Assembly: GCF_006861825.1 (NCBI RefSeq)
Contig: NZ_VDGI01000003.1
Span: 195,989-259,988 of the forward strand
Direction: 5' to 3'
Source: Psychrobacillus vulpis
GTDB lineage: Bacteria; Bacillota; Bacilli; Bacillales_A; Planococcaceae
DNA: 64,000 nucleotides
Shown here: positions 25,688 through 63,024 of the stretch, one piece after another
Numbering within the stretch: the stretch's first letter is position 1
Layout of the letters: every line of letters begins with the position of its first letter
Made by a program: the position numbers and the translations under genes
The notes under the pieces: generated by a model
The model's input: the letters and a program-made list of their open reading frames with translations, nothing else
What the model was told of the DNA's origin: nothing
The model's database searches: none

Positions 25688-26917
25688 TTGATAAACAAAA
25701 TTACATGTAAAAACGGACTTCGTATCGTCTCTGAACATATCCCACATGTACGTTCTGTAGCGGTAGGTATATGGGTGCAGGCAGGGTCAAGATATGAACT
25801 TCCAGAGGAAAACGGGTTAACGCATTTTATCGAACATATGCTGTTTAAAGGAACTGCTACGAGGTCTGCGAAACAAATAGCAGAAGAATTTGATCGTATC
25901 GGTGGAAATATTAATGCATTTACATCTAAAGAGAATACGTGTTATTATGCAAAAGTTTTAGACCATCATTCGAAATACGCTATTGAAATACTTGCTGATA
26001 TGTTTTTTAATTCCTTATTCGATCCAACTGAAATTGAGAAAGAAAGGCAAGTAGTACTAGAAGAAATTAATATGGTAGAAGATACGCCGGATGATATTGT
26101 TCATGAATATTTATGGAGAGCAATGTATGAAAACGATCCATTAGGTTCTCCGATTTTGGGTACAGAACAAACATTAAATAGTTTTACGAGAGATTCGATC
26201 TTGATGTATATGAAAAAGCATTACATTCCAGAAAACGTTGTTGTTTCTGTTTCTGGAAATATCCAGGATGGACTATTAGAATATATTGAAACATTATTTG
26301 AGCAGTTTGAACAAAGTAAAGGGGAAGTTTCCTCTGTAAATACTCCTACATTAAAGCCTATATATACGGAGAATTTCCGTGAAACAGAACAAGCTCATAT
26401 TTGTTTAGCATTTCCAGGATTAAGCGTGAAAGCGGACAATATTTATAGCTTAGTTGTATTGAACAATATTTTGGGCGGTAGTATGTCATCTAGGCTTTTT
26501 CAAGAGATCAGAGAAGATAAAGGTCTCGCGTATTCCATCTATTCTTACCACTCTTCTTATGAGGATACAGGAGTTATTGTTATATACGGGGGCACGTCTA
26601 GTAACCAATTAAATGAATTAAAGTCTACCATTAATGAATCCATTCGTAAGATTGTCGACAATGGATTTACTGAAACAGAAATTTCTAATGCTAAAGAACA
26701 ATTGAAAGGTAATTTATTGTTAGGGTTAGAAAGCACAAATGCTAGAATGAGTAGAAATGGAAAAAATGAGTTGCTTTATGGAAAACATCGCTCACTAGAT
26801 GAAGTTAGTGAAACGATTGATGAAGTAACACAGGAGTCCGTAGTGACTCTAGCTAGAGAAATATTTTCTTATGAACCAGCAGTATCAGTTATAATGCCTA
26901 AAAAAGTCAATCAATGA
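25688..26917 (+). CDS. mlpA: M16 zinc peptidase MlpA (YmxG)
   Basis: 409 aa from the TTG at 25688, set by TAGGGGTG just upstream; this equals the B. subtilis length. Insulinase-fold (M16) protease. The inverted zinc motif HFIEHMLFKGT is at about residues 49-59 with a downstream Glu in EKERQVVLEEINMVED. Conserved between pnp and the dipicolinate genes; in B. subtilis it affects protease gene expression. The stop codon lies inside the terminator hairpin at 26906, which is duplicated by an inserted repeat (26925-27488). Confidence 0.95.
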   Translation: MINKITCKNGLRIVSEHIPHVRSVAVGIWVQAGSRYELPEENGLTHFIEHMLFKGTATRSAKQIAEEFDRIGGNINAFTSKENTCYYAKVLDHHSKYAIEILADMFFNSLFDPTEIEKERQVVLEEINMVEDTPDDIVHEYLWRAMYENDPLGSPILGTEQTLNSFTRDSILMYMKKHYIPENVVVSVSGNIQDGLLEYIETLFEQFEQSKGEVSSVNTPTLKPIYTENFRETEQAHICLAFPGLSVKADNIYSLVVLNNILGGSMSSRLFQEIREDKGLAYSIYSYHSSYEDTGVIVIYGGTSSNQLNELKSTINESIRKIVDNGFTETEISNAKEQLKGNLLLGLESTNARMSRNGKNELLYGKHRSLDEVSETIDEVTQESVVTLAREIFSYEPAVSVIMPKKVNQ

Positions 26918-26925
26918 TGATTGAT
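26905..26925 (+). repeat. Left copy of the mlpA terminator hairpin (direct repeat)
   Basis: A 20-bp sequence containing GTCAATCA-ATGA-TGATTGA at 26905-26924 recurs exactly at 27489-27508. The left copy includes the mlpA stop and has lost its T-tract, because the inserted repeat begins right after it. Confidence 0.85.
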
Positions 26926-27488
26926 TTAGCTTGTCGACAAAATCATTTTTATGAATCAAAATGTATTAAGAACATAATGATTATTGTACTTTTCCTTTTG
27001 CAATCGCTTCCGGCGGACGCTTTCCGCGGGCTCGCGCCAAGCCTCGGGCCAACAGGATGTTGGTCATGATGGCGTTGCCGCAGGACGCGGCGATCTTAGC
27101 CTTCCTACTTATTGCCTGCGGGGTCTTGGACAGTCTCGCTGTCCCGCAGGAGTCGCCGCCTTCCGCTCATTTTAGTCTTCAATAAACAGAAAAGTGGACA
27201 TTAAAAGCCCTTTCACTTGATGAAATGGGATAGTCAATCCGTTATTTTTATCAGATGTTCCGAGAAACATTGATTGATCACAGCATCTTCAGATTTCCAC
27301 TTTCAACTTTTGAAAAATAGGCAGGGCCCGCCACGGAGACTCCTGTGGGAATAGCTTGAGCTGAAGACCCCGAAGGAACGGCAGTGACGAGGAGGCTGAA
27401 GCCAAGCCCACGGAAAGCGAAGTGGCGGGCCCCGCTGATTCTCTTATACATCTCAATTCATTGTAAAAACGAATTTGTTTACAGTCGG
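26925..27488. mobile_element. Terminator-associated repeat element, copy 1 (564 bp, non-coding)
   Basis: Ends are imperfect inverted repeats: left AGCTTGTCGACAAAATCATTTTTA (read here in two parts, about 26928-26951) against right, reverse-complemented, GACTGTAAACAAATTCG then TTTTTA (27486 back to about 27463). Inside are two GC-rich units in opposite orientation: 27001-27165 (GGCGGACGCTTTCCGCGGGC ... CAGGAGTCGCCGCCTTCCGC) and 27313-27440 (CCACGGAGACTCCTG ... AAAGCGAAGTGGCGGGCC). The same left and right arms recur at 60046-61070. No transposase is encoded; short open frames in it are by-products of GC-rich repeat sequence. Confidence 0.75.
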
Positions 27489-27518
27489 AGTCAATCAATG
27501 ATGATTGACTTTTTTTTG
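27489..27518 (+). terminator. Right copy of the mlpA terminator, with T-tract
   Basis: GTCAATCA-ATGA-TGATTGAC is a perfect 8-bp stem followed by eight T. This is the functional half of the duplicated hairpin. Confidence 0.9.
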
Positions 27519-31282: not shown

Positions 31283-31349
31283 ACTGAAGTTATTTGCTTC
31301 AGTTCAGACTGTAGACAAACTCTAAAAGTTGCTACAGTCTTTTTTTTTT
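31283..31349 (+). terminator. Double hairpin terminator after dapA, with an element-end-like insert
   Basis: First hairpin: ACTGAAG (31283-31289) with CTTCAGT (31297-31303), but no T-tract follows it. Next comes CAGACTGTAGACAAAC (31305-31320), almost identical to the element end at 63909, and then a second hairpin GACTGTAG/CTACAGTC (31307-31314 with 31332-31339) followed by ten T. The second hairpin is the working terminator. Confidence 0.8.
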
Positions 31350-31429
31350 ATAGATAAGAAAGTATATAAAAATGATGTACTATGAACCCAGTGTTTATAG
31401 TACTTTTACTAGGAATAGTAAAGACTTGT

Positions 31430-31560
31430 AAGGGCGCTGAAAGAGTGTCACTCCAGGGTTGACCAATAGTCCAATTAATAAGAAAATCGTTGAAACGGCA
31501 CTCTTTCCGCAGGCGTTGCCTCAGCCTCTTCGCTGCGAGGGCACTGAAAAAGTCCTCCAA
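31430..31560. repeat. Repeat fragment with CACTGAAAAAGT-type motifs
   Basis: GGGCGCTGAAAGAGTGTC at about 31432 and GAGGGCACTGAAAAAGTCC at 31537-31554, plus AGAAAATCGTTGAAACGGC near 31482. All of these recur, some inverted, in the nest at 60215-60962. No gene. Confidence 0.6.
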
Positions 31561-31570
31561 GAGATTTCAT

Positions 31571-31613
31571 AGAGAGTATGGTGAATGACAAGTTGTTCAC
31601 ATACTCTCTTTTT
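31571..31613 (+). terminator. Strong hairpin with T-run inside the repeat zone
   Basis: AGAGAGTATGGTGAA pairs with TTCACATACTCTCT (one bulge), followed by TTTTTA. No gene lies directly upstream; it may be the terminator of a lost gene or part of a mobile element. Confidence 0.6.
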
Positions 31614-31639
31614 ATTGGGAAATCGTTGATTTCCGTACC

Positions 31640-31800
31640 AGGCGGACGCTTTCCGCCGGCATGGCTTCAGCCGCTTCCCTTGCTCCTGCGCAAGCTCGTC
31701 GCAAAAATTAATTTCGCTACACTCAGTCCAGGGTCTTCAGCTCATGCTATTCCGGCTGGAGTCGCCGCCTTCCACTCCAATCAACTAGCATCCACCTATT
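31640..31800 (+). repeat. GC-rich repeat unit B at the left edge of the accessory block
   Basis: GGCGGACGCTTTCCGCCGGC ... GGAGTCGCCGCCTTCC then ACTCCAATCAACTAGCATC. It is the same family as 27001-27165 and, in inverted orientation, 37985-38112. Its ...CTCCAATCAACTA edge points into the accessory block, as does the matching edge of the inverted copy. Confidence 0.7.
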
Positions 31801-31853
31801 CTTCTAAAAACCTTATTCGTTAATAATAGAGAGACTAAATGGTGGTGTGCAAA

Positions 31854-32100
31854 ATGATTTCTAACCAAGAAACCCTTAATTTAAATGGCAATTTATGATT
31901 TGGTCGTTCCTAAAGATAATATACTTCGTCAAATAAACGAATTGGTAGACTTCTCCTTCGTTTTAGAGGAGTTGAAAACAAAATATTGTTTAGATAATGG
32001 TCGGAATGCCGTTCCCCCAATTCGGATGTTCAAGTACTTACTATTAAAGCAATTTTTGATGTATCCGATGTGGATCTAGTGAAACTGGGATAACCCCAGT
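31854..32100 (+). pseudogene. Remnant of an IS1182-family transposase (N-terminus only)
   Basis: ATG at 31854 gives MISNQETLNL, then the frame breaks; about 6-8 bases seem lost. It resumes at 31885 as MAIYDLVVPKDNILRQINELVDFSFVLEELKTKYCLDNGR...PIRMFKYLLLK, characteristic of the N-terminal domain of IS1182-type transposases. A one-base deletion near 32051 shifts the frame again: the continuation IFDVSDVDLV is readable in the next frame. No DDE catalytic part follows, so it is inactive. The family call is from remembered sequence patterns. Confidence 0.75.
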
Positions 32101-58682: not shown

Positions 58683-59477
58683 ATGAAAATATTATTTATA
58701 GGTGACATAGTTGGTTCTATTGGAAGAGATACTTTGGAAAGCTATTTACCAAGACTAAAAAGAAAATACTCGCCAGACGTAGTAATTGCGAATGGAGAAA
58801 ATGCTGCTGCAGGACGTGGAATTACAAAGAGTATTTTTCAATCATTACTGCATATGGGTGTAGATGTTGTAACAATGGGTAACCACACATGGGATCAAAA
58901 AGAAATTATGGACTTTATAGATGATACTGATTATTTAATCCGTCCAGCAAACTTTTCAGAGGAAGCGCCAGGAAAAGGGATGACCTCCATTACTAAAAAT
59001 GGACAAACTATATCTATTATTAATTTACATGGAAGAACTTTCTTACCACCTCATGATGATCCATTTAAGAAAGCAACGGAATTGGTAGAAGAAGCAAAAA
59101 AAATATCACCAATCATATTTGTAGATTTTCATGCAGAGGCCACTAGTGAAAAAATTGCATTAGGATGGCATTTAGATGGAAAAGCATCCGTTGTCGTTGG
59201 AACGCATACACATGTACAAACAGCAGATTCACGTATTTTACCAGAGGGAACGGCTTATATTACGGACGTTGGTATGACAGGACCATATGATGGCGTCTTA
59301 GGGATGAAAAAAGAAGATGTATTATACCGTTTTCAAACGAATATGCCAGCACGTTTTGAAGTGCCAAAAAGTGGTCGTTCAGTATTAAGTGGATTTTTTG
59401 TGGAAGTAAACGATTATGGAAAAGCTGTACATCAGGAACGAGTTTATATTAACGAAGATTATCCGTTTAAAGGTTAA
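58683..59477 (+). CDS. ymdB: YmdB metallophosphodiesterase
   Basis: 264 aa. Phosphodiesterase with activity on 2',3'-cyclic nucleotides in B. subtilis, where it affects the switch between motility and biofilm. Metal-ligand motifs: ILFIGDIVGSIGRDTLE (3-19), VIANGENAAAGRGIT (about 37), VTMGNHTWDQKEI (about 63), FVDFHAEATSEKIALGWHLDGK and VVGTHTHVQTAD (about 175). Follows rny. Confidence 0.95.
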   Translation: MKILFIGDIVGSIGRDTLESYLPRLKRKYSPDVVIANGENAAAGRGITKSIFQSLLHMGVDVVTMGNHTWDQKEIMDFIDDTDYLIRPANFSEEAPGKGMTSITKNGQTISIINLHGRTFLPPHDDPFKKATELVEEAKKISPIIFVDFHAEATSEKIALGWHLDGKASVVVGTHTHVQTADSRILPEGTAYITDVGMTGPYDGVLGMKKEDVLYRFQTNMPARFEVPKSGRSVLSGFFVEVNDYGKAVHQERVYINEDYPFKG

Positions 59478-59510
59478 AAGAGTCTAAAAAATTTCCTTAA
59501 AGCATAGGTT

Positions 59511-59540
59511 AGATTATGAACGAAAGCAAGTTCATAATCT
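59511..59540 (+). promoter_or_regulatory. Perfect 11-bp hairpin just before the spoVS ribosome binding site
   Basis: AGATTATGAAC (59511-59521) pairs perfectly with GTTCATAATCT (59530-59540) around an 8-base loop. The AGGAG site starts ten bases later. There is no T-tract, so it is more likely a leader structure or a protein-binding palindrome than a terminator. Confidence 0.6.
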
Positions 59541-59562
59541 AGCGATAAAAGGAGAAATGATA

Positions 59563-59829
59563 GTGGATTCTTTAAAAGTATCTTCTCGTTCAAACCCAAA
59601 TTCAGTTGCTGGTGCATTGGTTGCAGTAATAAGAGAACAAGGGTATGCAGAGATGCAAGCAGTAGGAGCAGGGGCATTAAATCAGGCAATTAAAGCTATT
59701 GCCATTGCAAGAGGATTTGTCGCACCAAGTGGAACAGACTTAACATGTTCACCTGCATTCACAGATATTATTATTTCAGGTGAAGATCGAACTGCTTTGA
59801 AGTTATTAGTAGAAAAAAAAGTAAAATAG
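59563..59829 (+). CDS. spoVS: Stage V sporulation protein S
   Basis: 88 aa from the GTG at 59563, eight bases after GGAG; an ATG at 59557 is too close to the site. Alba-like small nucleic-acid-binding protein needed for spore coat and cortex assembly in B. subtilis. Highly conserved: NPNSVAGALVAVIREQGYAEMQAVGAGALNQAIKAIAIARGFVAPSGTDLTCSPAFTDI. Order rny-ymdB-spoVS is as in B. subtilis. Confidence 0.96.
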   Translation: MDSLKVSSRSNPNSVAGALVAVIREQGYAEMQAVGAGALNQAIKAIAIARGFVAPSGTDLTCSPAFTDIIISGEDRTALKLLVEKKVK

Positions 59830-59836
59830 CTTCAGA

Positions 59837-60005
59837 CTACCCATAAAATACTGTACTCAGTTGGGTGAGTAAATTATAGGTCTATTTGAGAGCTGGATAA
59901 AGGCAAGAAAGGCAACTAATGCCACTAGTGCGAAGAACTTAGGTTGCCTTACTAAACAAGCATTTCAAGACAGTTTGAAGAGGATGCTTTCGGATTTATA
60001 TTTTT
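59837..60005 (+). other. Structured gene-free stretch after spoVS (possible 3' UTR or small RNA)
   Basis: Three hairpins in a row: ACCCA/TGGGT (59839-59843 with 59862-59866) enclosing ACTG-TACT-CAGT; AAGGCAACTAA with TTAGGTTGCCTT (about 59911-59955, one bulge); and AAGCAT/ATGCTT enclosing TTCAA/TTGAA (about 59968-59999). I matched it to no riboswitch or RNA family I know. Confidence 0.35.
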
Positions 60006-60016
60006 TCATAAACCTA

Positions 60017-60044
60017 AAGCCGCTACTTTTATTAGTAGCGGCTT
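60017..60044 (+). repeat. Left copy of the spoVS-side hairpin (direct repeat)
   Basis: AAGCCGCTAC-TTTTATTA-GTAGCGGCTT, a perfect 10-bp stem. The same hairpin recurs at 61071-61097 with two changes in the loop. The repeat element begins two bases after this copy. Confidence 0.85.
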
Positions 60045-60045
60045 A

Positions 60046-61070
60046 CAGCTTGTCGACAAATGCATTTTTATGAATCAACATGTATTAAGAACATAGTGAT
60101 TATTGTGCTTTTCCTGTAGCAATCGCTTCAGGCGGGCGCTTTCCGCTGAAAAATAGGAAGGGCCCTCCACGGAGACTCCTGTGGGAATAGCTTGAGCTGA
60201 AGACCCCGCAGGAAAGACACGAGGGCACTGAAAAAGTGTCATTCAAATAAATTATCTATCAAATAGTCCTAAGAGAATTTATCGCTTTGGCATTCGCTTT
60301 CCACGGGCGAGCGACGAGCCTCCTCCTTCGCTATGCTTCGTGCGGGGTTTTGGACGCTCCGTTTTTTCGCAGGATTCTCGTAAATTTTTCCTTTATGTAT
60401 AAGGAATCTAGTAGTTGTTATGAGAAGGCATTCCTAATAAAATTAAAGTGATTAGCTAGAAAGAGTTCCATCTTTTTTCTTATAAAATGAATGAAGACTA
60501 GTTGAACGGAAAAAGCTACTCGCTTTTCGCGGAGAATCGCCAAGCATACTCCTCACTGCAATGAGGGCACTGAAAACCCATCTTTGTTTTAATAAATACT
60601 TTTCATTTCTAGAAAATCGTTGAAGAAGGCGACACTCCTGCGGGAATAGCGTTAGTCGAAGACCCCGCAGCGAAGCGAGGAGGCTGAGGCAACGCCCGCG
60701 GAAAGGGAGGCCACTGAAAAACCAAAATTCAGAAAATAAAGTCACCACTTGAGAAGTATATTTGTATCAAAATTGGCATGACGTCCCCATAAACACCCTA
60801 AAAAGTGAAGGAATTATGGGATTTCGTTTTTATTTTTTGAAAAAAAGTGACTTTTTCAGTGGCCTCCGGAAAGGGAGCCGTTTCAACGATTTTCTTATTT
60901 ACTGGAATATTAGACTACCTCATTTGGCAAAATCGAATTATAGGGACTTTTTCAGTGACTTTGCAGTGACGAGGAGGCTGAAGCCAAGTCCACTGAAAGC
61001 GAAGTGGCGGGCCCTGCTGATTCTCTTATACATCTCCATTCATTGTAAAACGAATTTGTCTAAAGTCTGA
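60046..61070. mobile_element. Terminator-associated repeat element, copy 2 (about 1.0 kb, with nested insertion)
   Basis: The left arm 60046-60146 (CAGCTTGTCGACAAATG ... GCTTTCCGC) matches copy 1 from 26928 to about 27028 with few changes. Next, 60147-60214 matches 27312-27379, so the middle of copy 1 (about 285 bp) is missing here. The right arm 60963-61070 matches 27381-27486. Between these two parts lies a 748-bp insertion (60215-60962). No gene is encoded. Confidence 0.75.
60215..60962. mobile_element. Nested insertion with CACTGAAAAAGT ends inside copy 2
   Basis: The left boundary carries GGGCACTGAAAAAGTGTC (60223-60240) and the right boundary GGGACTTTTTCAGTGAC (60943-60959), inverted relative to each other. 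Further internal copies occur at 60566, 60709 (direct) and 60850 (inverted), with AGAAAATCGTTGAA near 60611 and, inverted, 60883. Contains fragments of GC-rich units (60290-60375, 60640-60707). Looks like several small elements stacked. Confidence 0.6.
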
Positions 61071-61097
61071 AAGCCGCTACTTTCATAAGTAGCGGCT
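61071..61097 (+). repeat. Right copy of the spoVS-side hairpin
   Basis: AAGCCGCTAC-TTTCATAA-GTAGCGGCT. It pairs as in the left copy. The following bases are AAAATTT, so it is not a strong terminator by itself. Confidence 0.8.
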
Positions 61098-61170
61098 AAA
61101 ATTTAGCATTTCATACATAGTGACGATAATCTGAATATATTGTGACGAAGCAATTCCGTCAAAGGTCTGA

Positions 61171-61225
61171 TTTTCATGAAAAATATTGTGAATACATAGT
61201 GAATATCACTACTTCGTGATAAACT
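61171..61225 (+). promoter_or_regulatory. Palindromes and promoter-like boxes upstream of korA
   Basis: TTTTCATGAAAA (61171-61182) and TAGTGA-ATA-TCACTA (61197-61211) are perfect palindromes; GTGAATA repeats at 61188 and 61199, 11 bp apart. TGATAAACT at about 61217-61225 could be an extended -10. Looks like a regulated promoter, but I cannot name the regulator. Confidence 0.4.
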
Positions 61226-61269
61226 AATGAAGGTAAAAGCATTCAACCAGATAGTAAGGAGATGTTTAT

Positions 61270-63024
61270 ATGTTGCAACAGCTTTCTTGGAAAGTAGGAG
61301 GGCAGCAAGGAGAGGGTATCGAAAGTACTGGTGAGATTTTCTCAATGGCGATGAATCGCCTTGGATATTACCTTTATGGATATCGTCATTTCTCTTCTCG
61401 TATTAAAGGTGGTCATACGAATAATAAAATCTGTGTACGACCTACGCAAGTTCGTACAATCCCAGATGATTTAGATATACTTGTAGCTTTTGATCAAGAA
61501 ACAATCGATGTTAATTACAAAGAGCTTACAGAAAAAAGTGTTATATTAGCAGACGCTAAATTTTCACCTGTTTCTCCAGAGGATTGTTTAGCACCAATGT
61601 ATATTGTTCCGTTTACGGAAATTGCGGCGGAGTTAGGTACATCATTAATGAAAAATATGGTGGCAATTGGTGCAACTTCCGCATTGTTGAACTTAGATAA
61701 AGCAGTATTTCAAGGTGTGGTAGATGAGATTTTTGGTAAAAAAGGAACAGAAGTAGTAGAAAAAAATATGCAGGCGATTCAACAAGGCTTTGATGTAATG
61801 GCTGAGCAACTAGGGGACCGTTTAGGAGAATGGCAACTAATTGAAGCAGATGGAAAACATCGTATGTTCATGATTGGAAATGATGCAATTGCACTTGGTG
61901 CACTAACAGCAGGAGTTCGTTTCATGGCAGCCTATCCAATTACTCCAGCTTCTGAAATCATGGAATATATGATTAAAAAGCTACCGCTATTTGGTGGTGC
62001 AGTCATTCAAACAGAAGACGAAATAGCTGCAGCAACAATGGCAATTGGATCAAACTACGGCGGTGTACGAGCGTTTACGGCATCTGCAGGACCGGGCCTT
62101 TCACTTATGATGGAAGCAATAGGCTTATCCGGTATGACAGAGCAGCCACTTGTAATAGTGGATACACAACGTGGTGGTCCTTCAACTGGTCTTCCAACTA
62201 AACAAGAGCAATCTGACTTAATGCAAATGATTTATGGAACACATGGTGAAATTCCAAAAGTAGTTATTGCACCAAGTACAGGAGAAGAAGCGTTTTTTGA
62301 TACGATTCAAGCATTTAATATTGCAGAAGAATTACAACTTCCTGTCATTATCTTGTCTGACTTACAATTATCACTTGGTAAACAAACCGTTGATCCATTT
62401 GATTATTCAAAAATTGAAATTAGACGCGGTAAATTAGTTCAAAACGAAGAAATCCCTGAATCAGTGGATAAATCGTATTTTAAACGTTTTGAAGTAACAG
62501 AAGACGGTGTTTCTCCACGTGTTTTACCAGGAACAGCACATGCTATTCACCACGTAACAGGTGTCGAGCACGATGAAACTGGAAAGCCATCAGAAGCAGC
62601 TACAAATCGTATAGCTCAAATGGACAAGCGTATGAAAAAATTAAAGCATGTTCAATTTAATGAACCTGTATATAAAAATGTACCTTACGAAGAAGCAGAT
62701 ATCTTATTTGTTGGTTTCAATTCAACTAGAGGTGTATTAGAGGAATTACAACAAACACTGATATCACAAGGAATGAAAGTGAATCATGCACATATCCGAT
62801 TAATTCACCCATTCCCTGTAGAGGAAATGCAACCATTAGTAGCAAATGCAAAAAAAGTAGTTGTTGTAGAAAATAATGCTACAGGGCAACTAGCGAACAT
62901 TTTAAAAATGAATGTTGGTGGACATGACAAAGTAGTAAATGTAACAAAATACGACGGTACACCATTTTTACCATTACAGCTTGAAAAACAAGTAAAGGAG
63001 TTGCTAGCAGATGGTAACATTTAA
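61270..63024 (+). CDS. korA: 2-oxoacid:ferredoxin oxidoreductase alpha subunit (gamma-alpha fusion)
   Basis: 584 aa. Converts a 2-oxoacid, probably 2-oxoglutarate, to the acyl-CoA with ferredoxin as electron acceptor. N-terminal gamma domain (about 1-190, WKVGGQQGEGIESTGEIFSMAMNRLGYYLYGYRHFSSRIKGGH) is fused to the alpha pyrimidine-binding domain (GNDAIALGALTAGVRFMAAYPITPASEIMEYM; TEDEIAAATMAIGSNYGGVRAFTASAGPGLSLMMEA) and a C-terminal transketolase-like part. AAGGAG precedes the ATG. Overlaps korB by 14 bases. Confidence 0.95.
   Translation: MLQQLSWKVGGQQGEGIESTGEIFSMAMNRLGYYLYGYRHFSSRIKGGHTNNKICVRPTQVRTIPDDLDILVAFDQETIDVNYKELTEKSVILADAKFSPVSPEDCLAPMYIVPFTEIAAELGTSLMKNMVAIGATSALLNLDKAVFQGVVDEIFGKKGTEVVEKNMQAIQQGFDVMAEQLGDRLGEWQLIEADGKHRMFMIGNDAIALGALTAGVRFMAAYPITPASEIMEYMIKKLPLFGGAVIQTEDEIAAATMAIGSNYGGVRAFTASAGPGLSLMMEAIGLSGMTEQPLVIVDTQRGGPSTGLPTKQEQSDLMQMIYGTHGEIPKVVIAPSTGEEAFFDTIQAFNIAEELQLPVIILSDLQLSLGKQTVDPFDYSKIEIRRGKLVQNEEIPESVDKSYFKRFEVTEDGVSPRVLPGTAHAIHHVTGVEHDETGKPSEAATNRIAQMDKRMKKLKHVQFNEPVYKNVPYEEADILFVGFNSTRGVLEELQQTLISQGMKVNHAHIRLIHPFPVEEMQPLVANAKKVVVVENNATGQLANILKMNVGGHDKVVNVTKYDGTPFLPLQLEKQVKELLADGNI

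Follow-up and report, generated by a model that had tools for sequence, protein, structure and literature searches.

Downstream of a gene that we take to be spoVS, the analyzed stretch of Psychrobacillus vulpis DNA (64,000 nucleotides; hereafter, the window) carries nearly the same hairpin twice, with a 1,024-bp element in between. Does the hairpin pair belong to the element, or was one resident hairpin doubled when the element arrived, and if so, what was recognized at the target? We conclude that the pair is very probably a target-site duplication, produced when an IS1182-family DDE transposase, acting in trans, put a non-autonomous element into the spoVS terminator and recognized the folded inverted repeat there. 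The features of the site are as follows.

59557..59829, + strand: spoVS coding sequence (ORF of 90 aa), the upstream gene that supplies the target terminator; it served as the probe for empty sites.
60016..60043, + strand: target hairpin, left copy, the spoVS terminator stem-loop (direct repeat D4, 93% identity to the right copy); a related hairpin stands single in same-genus genomes.
60046..61069, no strand assigned: non-autonomous IS1182-related element with no transposase gene, 1,024 bp, with ends CAGCTTGTCGACAAA and TTTGTCTAAAGTCTG.
60046..60068, + strand: left terminal inverted repeat of the element (inverted pair I1, which covers hairpin plus end); the same end is found at other copies.
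60221..60237, + strand: nested end-like sequence of another IS1182 subgroup (GAGGGCACTGAAAAAGT) inside the element.
60850..60866, − strand: second nested end-like sequence of that other subgroup, inverted (inverted repeat I5 with 60221-60237, 94% complementary).
61047..61069, − strand: right terminal inverted repeat of the element (inverted pair I1); the right arm recurs at other copies.
61070..61097, + strand: target hairpin, right copy (D4); the sequence downstream of it resembles an empty site in a relative (L078).

Both hairpins are 28 nt long and equal at 26 of 28 bases (93%; AAAGCCGCTAC...GTAGCGGCT). A sequence-only reading had placed them at 60017-60044 and 61071-61097; both are indeed present, with the start shifted by one base to 60016-60043 and 61070-61097. 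The element ends, CAGCTTGTCGACAAA and TTTGTCTAAAGTCTG, form an imperfect terminal inverted repeat, and the interior contains GC-rich pieces that are 73-84% like the subterminal arm of an autonomous partner IS, described below, from another genome of the genus (G013). Positions 60221-60247 match the end of a loop-type IS of G013 (27 nt, 89%). No transposase-sized ORF lies within the element, which has just two short ORFs (98 and 102 aa) with no known kin; an Rfam search of 59000-61800 gave 0 matches, and a search of solved structures gave a single match at chance level (E 0.24).

The window holds a comparable arrangement at mlpA:

26905..26924, + strand: mlpA hairpin, left copy, overlapping the mlpA stop codon (locus L017).
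26927..27488, no strand assigned: mlpA element (the first copy), 562 bp.
27489..27508, + strand: mlpA hairpin, right copy, followed by a T-tract; relatives have one hairpin here.

The two sites had been read as carrying the same element. This holds for the arms, which match over 100 nt on the left (91%) and 88 nt on the right (95%), and for a GC-rich inner piece, but not for the other inner parts, which differ, or for the lengths, which are unequal (1,024 versus 562 bp). Comparison bears out the further claim that the mlpA hairpin is unrelated in sequence to the one at spoVS. At empty sites of the same genus, the mlpA hairpin straddles or adjoins the stop codon.

Across the 4.02-Mb genome that contains the window, a search with E up to 1 gives 34 matches to the left arm and 40 to the right, many of them fragments. 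We read 27 loci and measured 26. Omitted were L026, whose left end is truncated, the partial or unrelated loci L027, L029 and L030, and four matches that have no locus; the right end was unreadable at L002, L011 and L015, so that 23 of the 26 measured loci were scored. The direct repeat across the element scored above all 506 mismatched pairings in 22 of these 23 copies (median score 22 versus a maximum of 10), which excludes chance as the source of the repeated arrangement. The exception, L016, has no matching hairpin pair, and its left copy seems truncated. At L002, whose far end lies in another locus, the hairpin was also judged by eye to be duplicated; with this copy included, 23 of the 24 copies with both ends readable have a locus-specific duplicated hairpin. 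The sequence-only reading had expected duplicated stem-loops of varying sequence in the flanks of most copies, and had held that one identical hairpin at every copy would speak against target recognition. We find duplicated stem-loops that differ from site to site, their sequences unrelated from locus to locus, and no common hairpin.

The spoVS copy is long for the group, since the 22 other measured copies span 331-789 bp; L002, not one of these, is about 1.7 kb. The window element encodes no transposase, its inverted ends resemble those of an IS of the family, it is flanked by a target duplication and it occurs in many copies, which are the attributes of an IS1182-family MITE. In a rough count of ORFs, the nearest one upstream ends no more than 150 nt from the element’s left end in 15 of the 22 copies. 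A similarly rough count (ORFs of at least 100 codons) has the 3′ end of a gene reading toward the left end in 19 of 22, and a preferred orientation of the element relative to genes is possible.

If the hairpins come from the target, related genomes should hold one hairpin and no element. In all 18 other genomes of the genus that were examined, neither element end (two mismatches allowed) occurs in the spoVS-korA or mlpA-ylmC gap, each gap has its best hairpin at a single place, and no repeated hairpin was found; same-genus relatives thus have empty sites at both spoVS and mlpA, as the sequence-only reading had anticipated for spoVS. For L081, L086 and L406, where the scripted best hairpin was not the terminator, the terminator was judged single by eye, and L398 was read over 352 nt, short of the downstream gene. 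The reverse case also occurs: a 28-nt hairpin is duplicated at one G013 copy (L277), and the counterpart site in the window’s genome is empty, with one related hairpin preceded by an A-run and followed by a T-run. Separately, other GC-rich insertions (GGCGGACGCTTTCCGC-like) adjoin the same terminators in the spoVS-korA or mlpA-ylmC gaps of other species (L070, L399, L406, L408), which suggests that insertions use these terminator sites repeatedly.

A candidate for the source of the transposase is found in G013. Of 19 genomes of the genus, that of the window counted, 15 contain the end sequence CAGACTGTAGACAAA, of which the left end of the window element (CAGCTTGTCGACAAA) is a diverged form. 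In G013, CAGACTGTAGACAAA bounds a 1,707-bp IS (L275, L276, L277, L279 and L280; L278 carries a further insertion), whose terminal inverted repeats are CAGACTGTAGACAAA on the left and, on the right, the same with one mismatch. Six places in G013 encode the same intact transposase, a 459-codon open frame giving 458 aa from the ATG. It belongs to the IS1182 family (466 bits on NCBIfam NF033551 IS1182, cut-off 270) and scores above the cut-offs of Pfam PF05598, PF13751 and PF01609 (DUF772 and DDE transposase domains). D152, D281 and E408, the putative DDE triad, are invariant in 27 of 27 aligned transposases, as are D216 and D257. Ten G013 stretches were examined, nine of which gave two ends (L281 was without a second outer end); in all nine copies the direct repeats are hairpins of 22-35 nt, exact or with one mismatch, and three copies have shortened insides (L274, L282, L283). 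In the G013 IS, the left end forms a palindrome followed by a T-run (L276:584-635; CAGACTGTAGACAAACTCC...GGAGTTTGCCTACAGTCTT) and may, given these two features, act as a terminator against incoming transcription.

In the window’s genome, a search at 1e-30 gave no match to an intact partner transposase, and the weaker matches are fragments or of the L098 type discussed below; because of this, the link to the partner IS is drawn from the ends, the inner GC-rich pieces and the target behavior. On that basis, the copies in the window’s genome were presumably moved by a transposase like the relative’s 459-aa one.

This type of transposase occurs in 83 of 398 sampled Bacilli genomes (at 1e-30). We examined 81 copies, comprising the nine from G013, 26 of 30 loci returned (four at contig ends were omitted) and 46 of 47 further stretches hand-picked, as a partial selection, from the Bacilli list (L393 was clipped and left out). 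A direct repeat of at least 16 nt is present in 50 of the 81, and in 49 of these 50 it is a whole inverted repeat of 19-35 nt with at most one mismatch, unrelated in sequence to the others; a few of the 49 are symmetric only once up to 3 nt are trimmed. The long repeat at L392 was rejected as a false hit of the repeat finder. Over the 50 repeats, a mean of 7.2 of the 8 outer positions pair, versus 2.1 in random segments. The 23 loci without a repeat-finder result were re-read using anchored ends. A hairpin was found within 3 nt of the IS end at 124 of 129 readable ends (68 copies, loop-type neighbors left out), compared with 11 of 645 flanks after shuffling and 19 of 645 flanks taken at random. 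A long repeat is missing from 31 copies. Eight of them carry repeats of 7-9 bp and fall in the neighboring loop-type group, others show a different hairpin at each end, and for some the ends were not found. Six named plasmid records include three whole-hairpin duplications (24 nt in Peribacillus sp. R9-11 pB, 30 nt in Sutcliffiella horikoshii pBH-BAT-167 and 20 nt at ISEfa7 in Enterococcus faecium), two copies with different end hairpins and one (L424) without a good left end.

The duplication starts with A in 38 of 49 cases and ends with T in 41 of 49, lying inside an A-tract/stem/T-tract arrangement. Because pairing extends beyond the duplication by a mean of 2.4 pairs, the join tends to fall where the stem passes into A:T pairs; not every join coincides with the foot of the longest stem.

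At eight loci (L325, L329, L330, L350, L356, L363, L391, L394) the hairpin differs between the two ends, which we tentatively put down to recombination between copies that exchanged flanks. Such recombination was rejected as the only source of paired hairpins, as exact repeats flank identical multi-copy ISs. The mismatched copies could serve for tracing rearrangements.

Two other transposase groups make duplications of 7-9 bp, often at the center of a palindrome. The first includes L098, an intact transposase in the window’s genome that falls in a different IS1182 subgroup, and its relatives in many Bacilli; it has ends GAGGGCACTGAAAAA or GAGGCCACTGAAAAA and mostly 8-9 bp duplications. Of 80 L098-like loci, 53 were readable (CTGAAAA ends with a repeat of 6-9 bp). 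In 30 of these 53, at least 5 of 8 positions pair between the arms that flank the repeat, a level reached by 9.3% of mismatched pairs; the other 23 fall below this pairing threshold. The second loop-type group has ends resembling CAGACTGTTGAGAAAGTC, and its transposases share 39-42% identity with the 458-aa one. Its repeats are 7 bp long (9 bp in one), and in eight copies 5-7 of the 8 arm positions pair. The window element lacks the short duplication at a palindrome center that marks these groups. The L098 transposase was rejected as its driver, since the relatives of L098 end differently (GAGGGCACTGAAAAA) and for the most part duplicate 8-9 bp; GAGGGCACTGAAAAA-type ends do occur nested inside the window element. 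In a tree of 33 transposase rows, one branch sets apart the 8-9 bp group and another the 7-bp group; two changes are required for the hairpin-type rows, and a single hairpin clade is not rejected (p 0.10).

Two further observations concern loop-type sequences. At 31305-32055 of the window, an outer-type end (CAGACTGTAGACAAACTC) lies beside a hairpin and is followed by a fragment of an L098-type IS1182 transposase. At G000:C23:352517-353974, an intact loop-type IS1182 transposase lies nearly at the contig end; near-identical fragments at the contig ends of C2 and C3 indicate that the assembly probably breaks at this repeat.

The duplication is thus specific to each locus, sites without the element carry one hairpin, related transposase-encoding ISs behave alike, and the hairpin sets the length of the duplication. 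As this length tracks the hairpin, target choice is structure-directed. There is strong support for the proposal that a stem-loop is recognized, because in the relatives that encode a transposase the boundaries of the duplication lie symmetrically on palindromes of any length or sequence; the enzyme family appears to recognize the folded shape of its target and not the letters. DDE transposases usually make a fixed stagger, and a duplication of 19-35 nt equal to a complete hairpin is for this reason unusual. We propose that an IS1182-family transposase, supplied in trans, would insert the non-autonomous element into the intrinsic terminator of spoVS by reading the inverted repeat as a folded structure. 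The element ends would be joined to the target at symmetric points near the stem foot, one on each strand, and gap repair would then copy the whole stem-loop to both sides.

For the geometry of this reaction, a published model is available. In the scheme that Wan et al. 2017 (PMC5678879) proposed for IS1272, the stem-loop of a cruciform is lost if the element joins at the 3′ feet, may be duplicated if it joins at the 5′ feet (branch b), and may have its loop duplicated if it joins at the loops (branch c); branches b and c are drawn without examples in the parts seen, and the new insertions in the parts seen of that paper and of Furi et al. 2016 (PMC4923244) are hairpin losses. Judging from the products, the likeliest target at spoVS would be an extruded cruciform attacked at its two 5′ feet, since the whole-hairpin product fits branch b. 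The loop-type groups look like branch c, and the set as a whole would fit one reaction with different symmetric joining points.

Another reading, unlikely in our view but the strongest of those we weighed, is that transcription guides the transposase to terminators (through paused RNA polymerase, an RNA hairpin or an R-loop), or single-stranded DNA at replication forks does so, the palindrome being incidental to the terminator. The targets do resemble intrinsic terminators, with a T-tract on the right in 36 of 49 and an A-tract on the left in 39 of 49, and in 19 of 22 copies in the window’s genome (rough ORF count) the left end faces the 3′ end of an incoming gene. A target that is single-stranded or coupled to transcription could yield the same product. 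However, a signal on one strand does not obviously predict symmetric boundaries on both strands, both tracts border 31 of the 49 targets, and what the loop-type groups duplicate is a short stretch flanked by inverted arms, as though centered on a palindrome of this kind. Very improbable is insertion at random, with survival only of harmless insertions in terminators: when a terminator is duplicated, both flanks keep a hairpin, and at mlpA the left copy retains the stop codon, but selection on place leaves unexplained why the duplication ends on the palindrome and varies in length with it. That the hairpins belong to a composite element with a terminator at each end, as the same hairpin at both ends in 23 of 24 readable copies might suggest, is refuted by the empty sites, because the hairpin varies by locus and pre-exists in element-free genomes.

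Recognition of the folded inverted repeat therefore remains our preferred reading, and it can be set against known systems. IS1272 and TnSha1 are placed in the IS1182 family in the parts consulted of Furi et al. 2016 (PMC4923244) and Wan et al. 2017 (PMC5678879), and as here their targets are stem-loops, many of them terminators, with no sequence consensus. According to the same sections, IS1272 replaces or partly deletes the stem-loop with no duplication, whereas the whole stem-loop is duplicated here; the window element shows direct repeats, and its hairpin is not removed. Some older IS1272 copies lie at sites other than inverted repeats, as far as the consulted parts of Wan et al. (PMC5678879) describe. 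ISEfa7 of Enterococcus faecium, annotated as IS1182-like, has a transposase 55% identical to the 459-aa one, ends in CAGACTGTAGACAAA and, like the window element, duplicates a hairpin (20 nt, in NZ_AP026656.1); unlike that element, it carries its own transposase. MITEPye1 of Paracoccus yeei (PMC11578231) is likewise MITE-type with IS1182-family ends, but has 4-bp direct repeats, with no mention of hairpin duplication in the portion consulted. ISCaa15 (IS1182) of Amoebophilus asiaticus (PMC3196728) shares the family name and has a 457-aa transposase, and the table in the part seen lists 4-bp direct repeats, unlike the hairpin-long duplication here. The loop-type subgroup shares an NCBIfam family with the partner IS and often lies between inverted arms, but differs in its ends and its short duplication.

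ISfinder gives a wide range of duplication lengths for the IS1182 family, and Siguier et al. 2015, cited by both Wan et al. and Furi et al., are said to have noted that some members target palindromes. In the literature searched, which includes few subscription papers, no report of whole-hairpin duplication was found.

The results supply natural examples, within one family and from related transposases, for two outcomes that were only proposed in the published model, and having them within one family makes structure-directed transposition directly testable. They account for a class of repeated hairpins next to Bacilli genes, and, with the hairpin kept on both sides, suggest that such elements spread almost harmlessly. 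A broader proposal, which we hold to be about evenly balanced between true and false, is that a widespread branch of DDE transposases picks its target by shape and makes symmetric cuts across the four-way junction that any extruded hairpin forms, with no fixed duplication length, relatives differing only in the symmetric points attacked; the result would be whole-hairpin duplication, loop-only duplication or hairpin loss.
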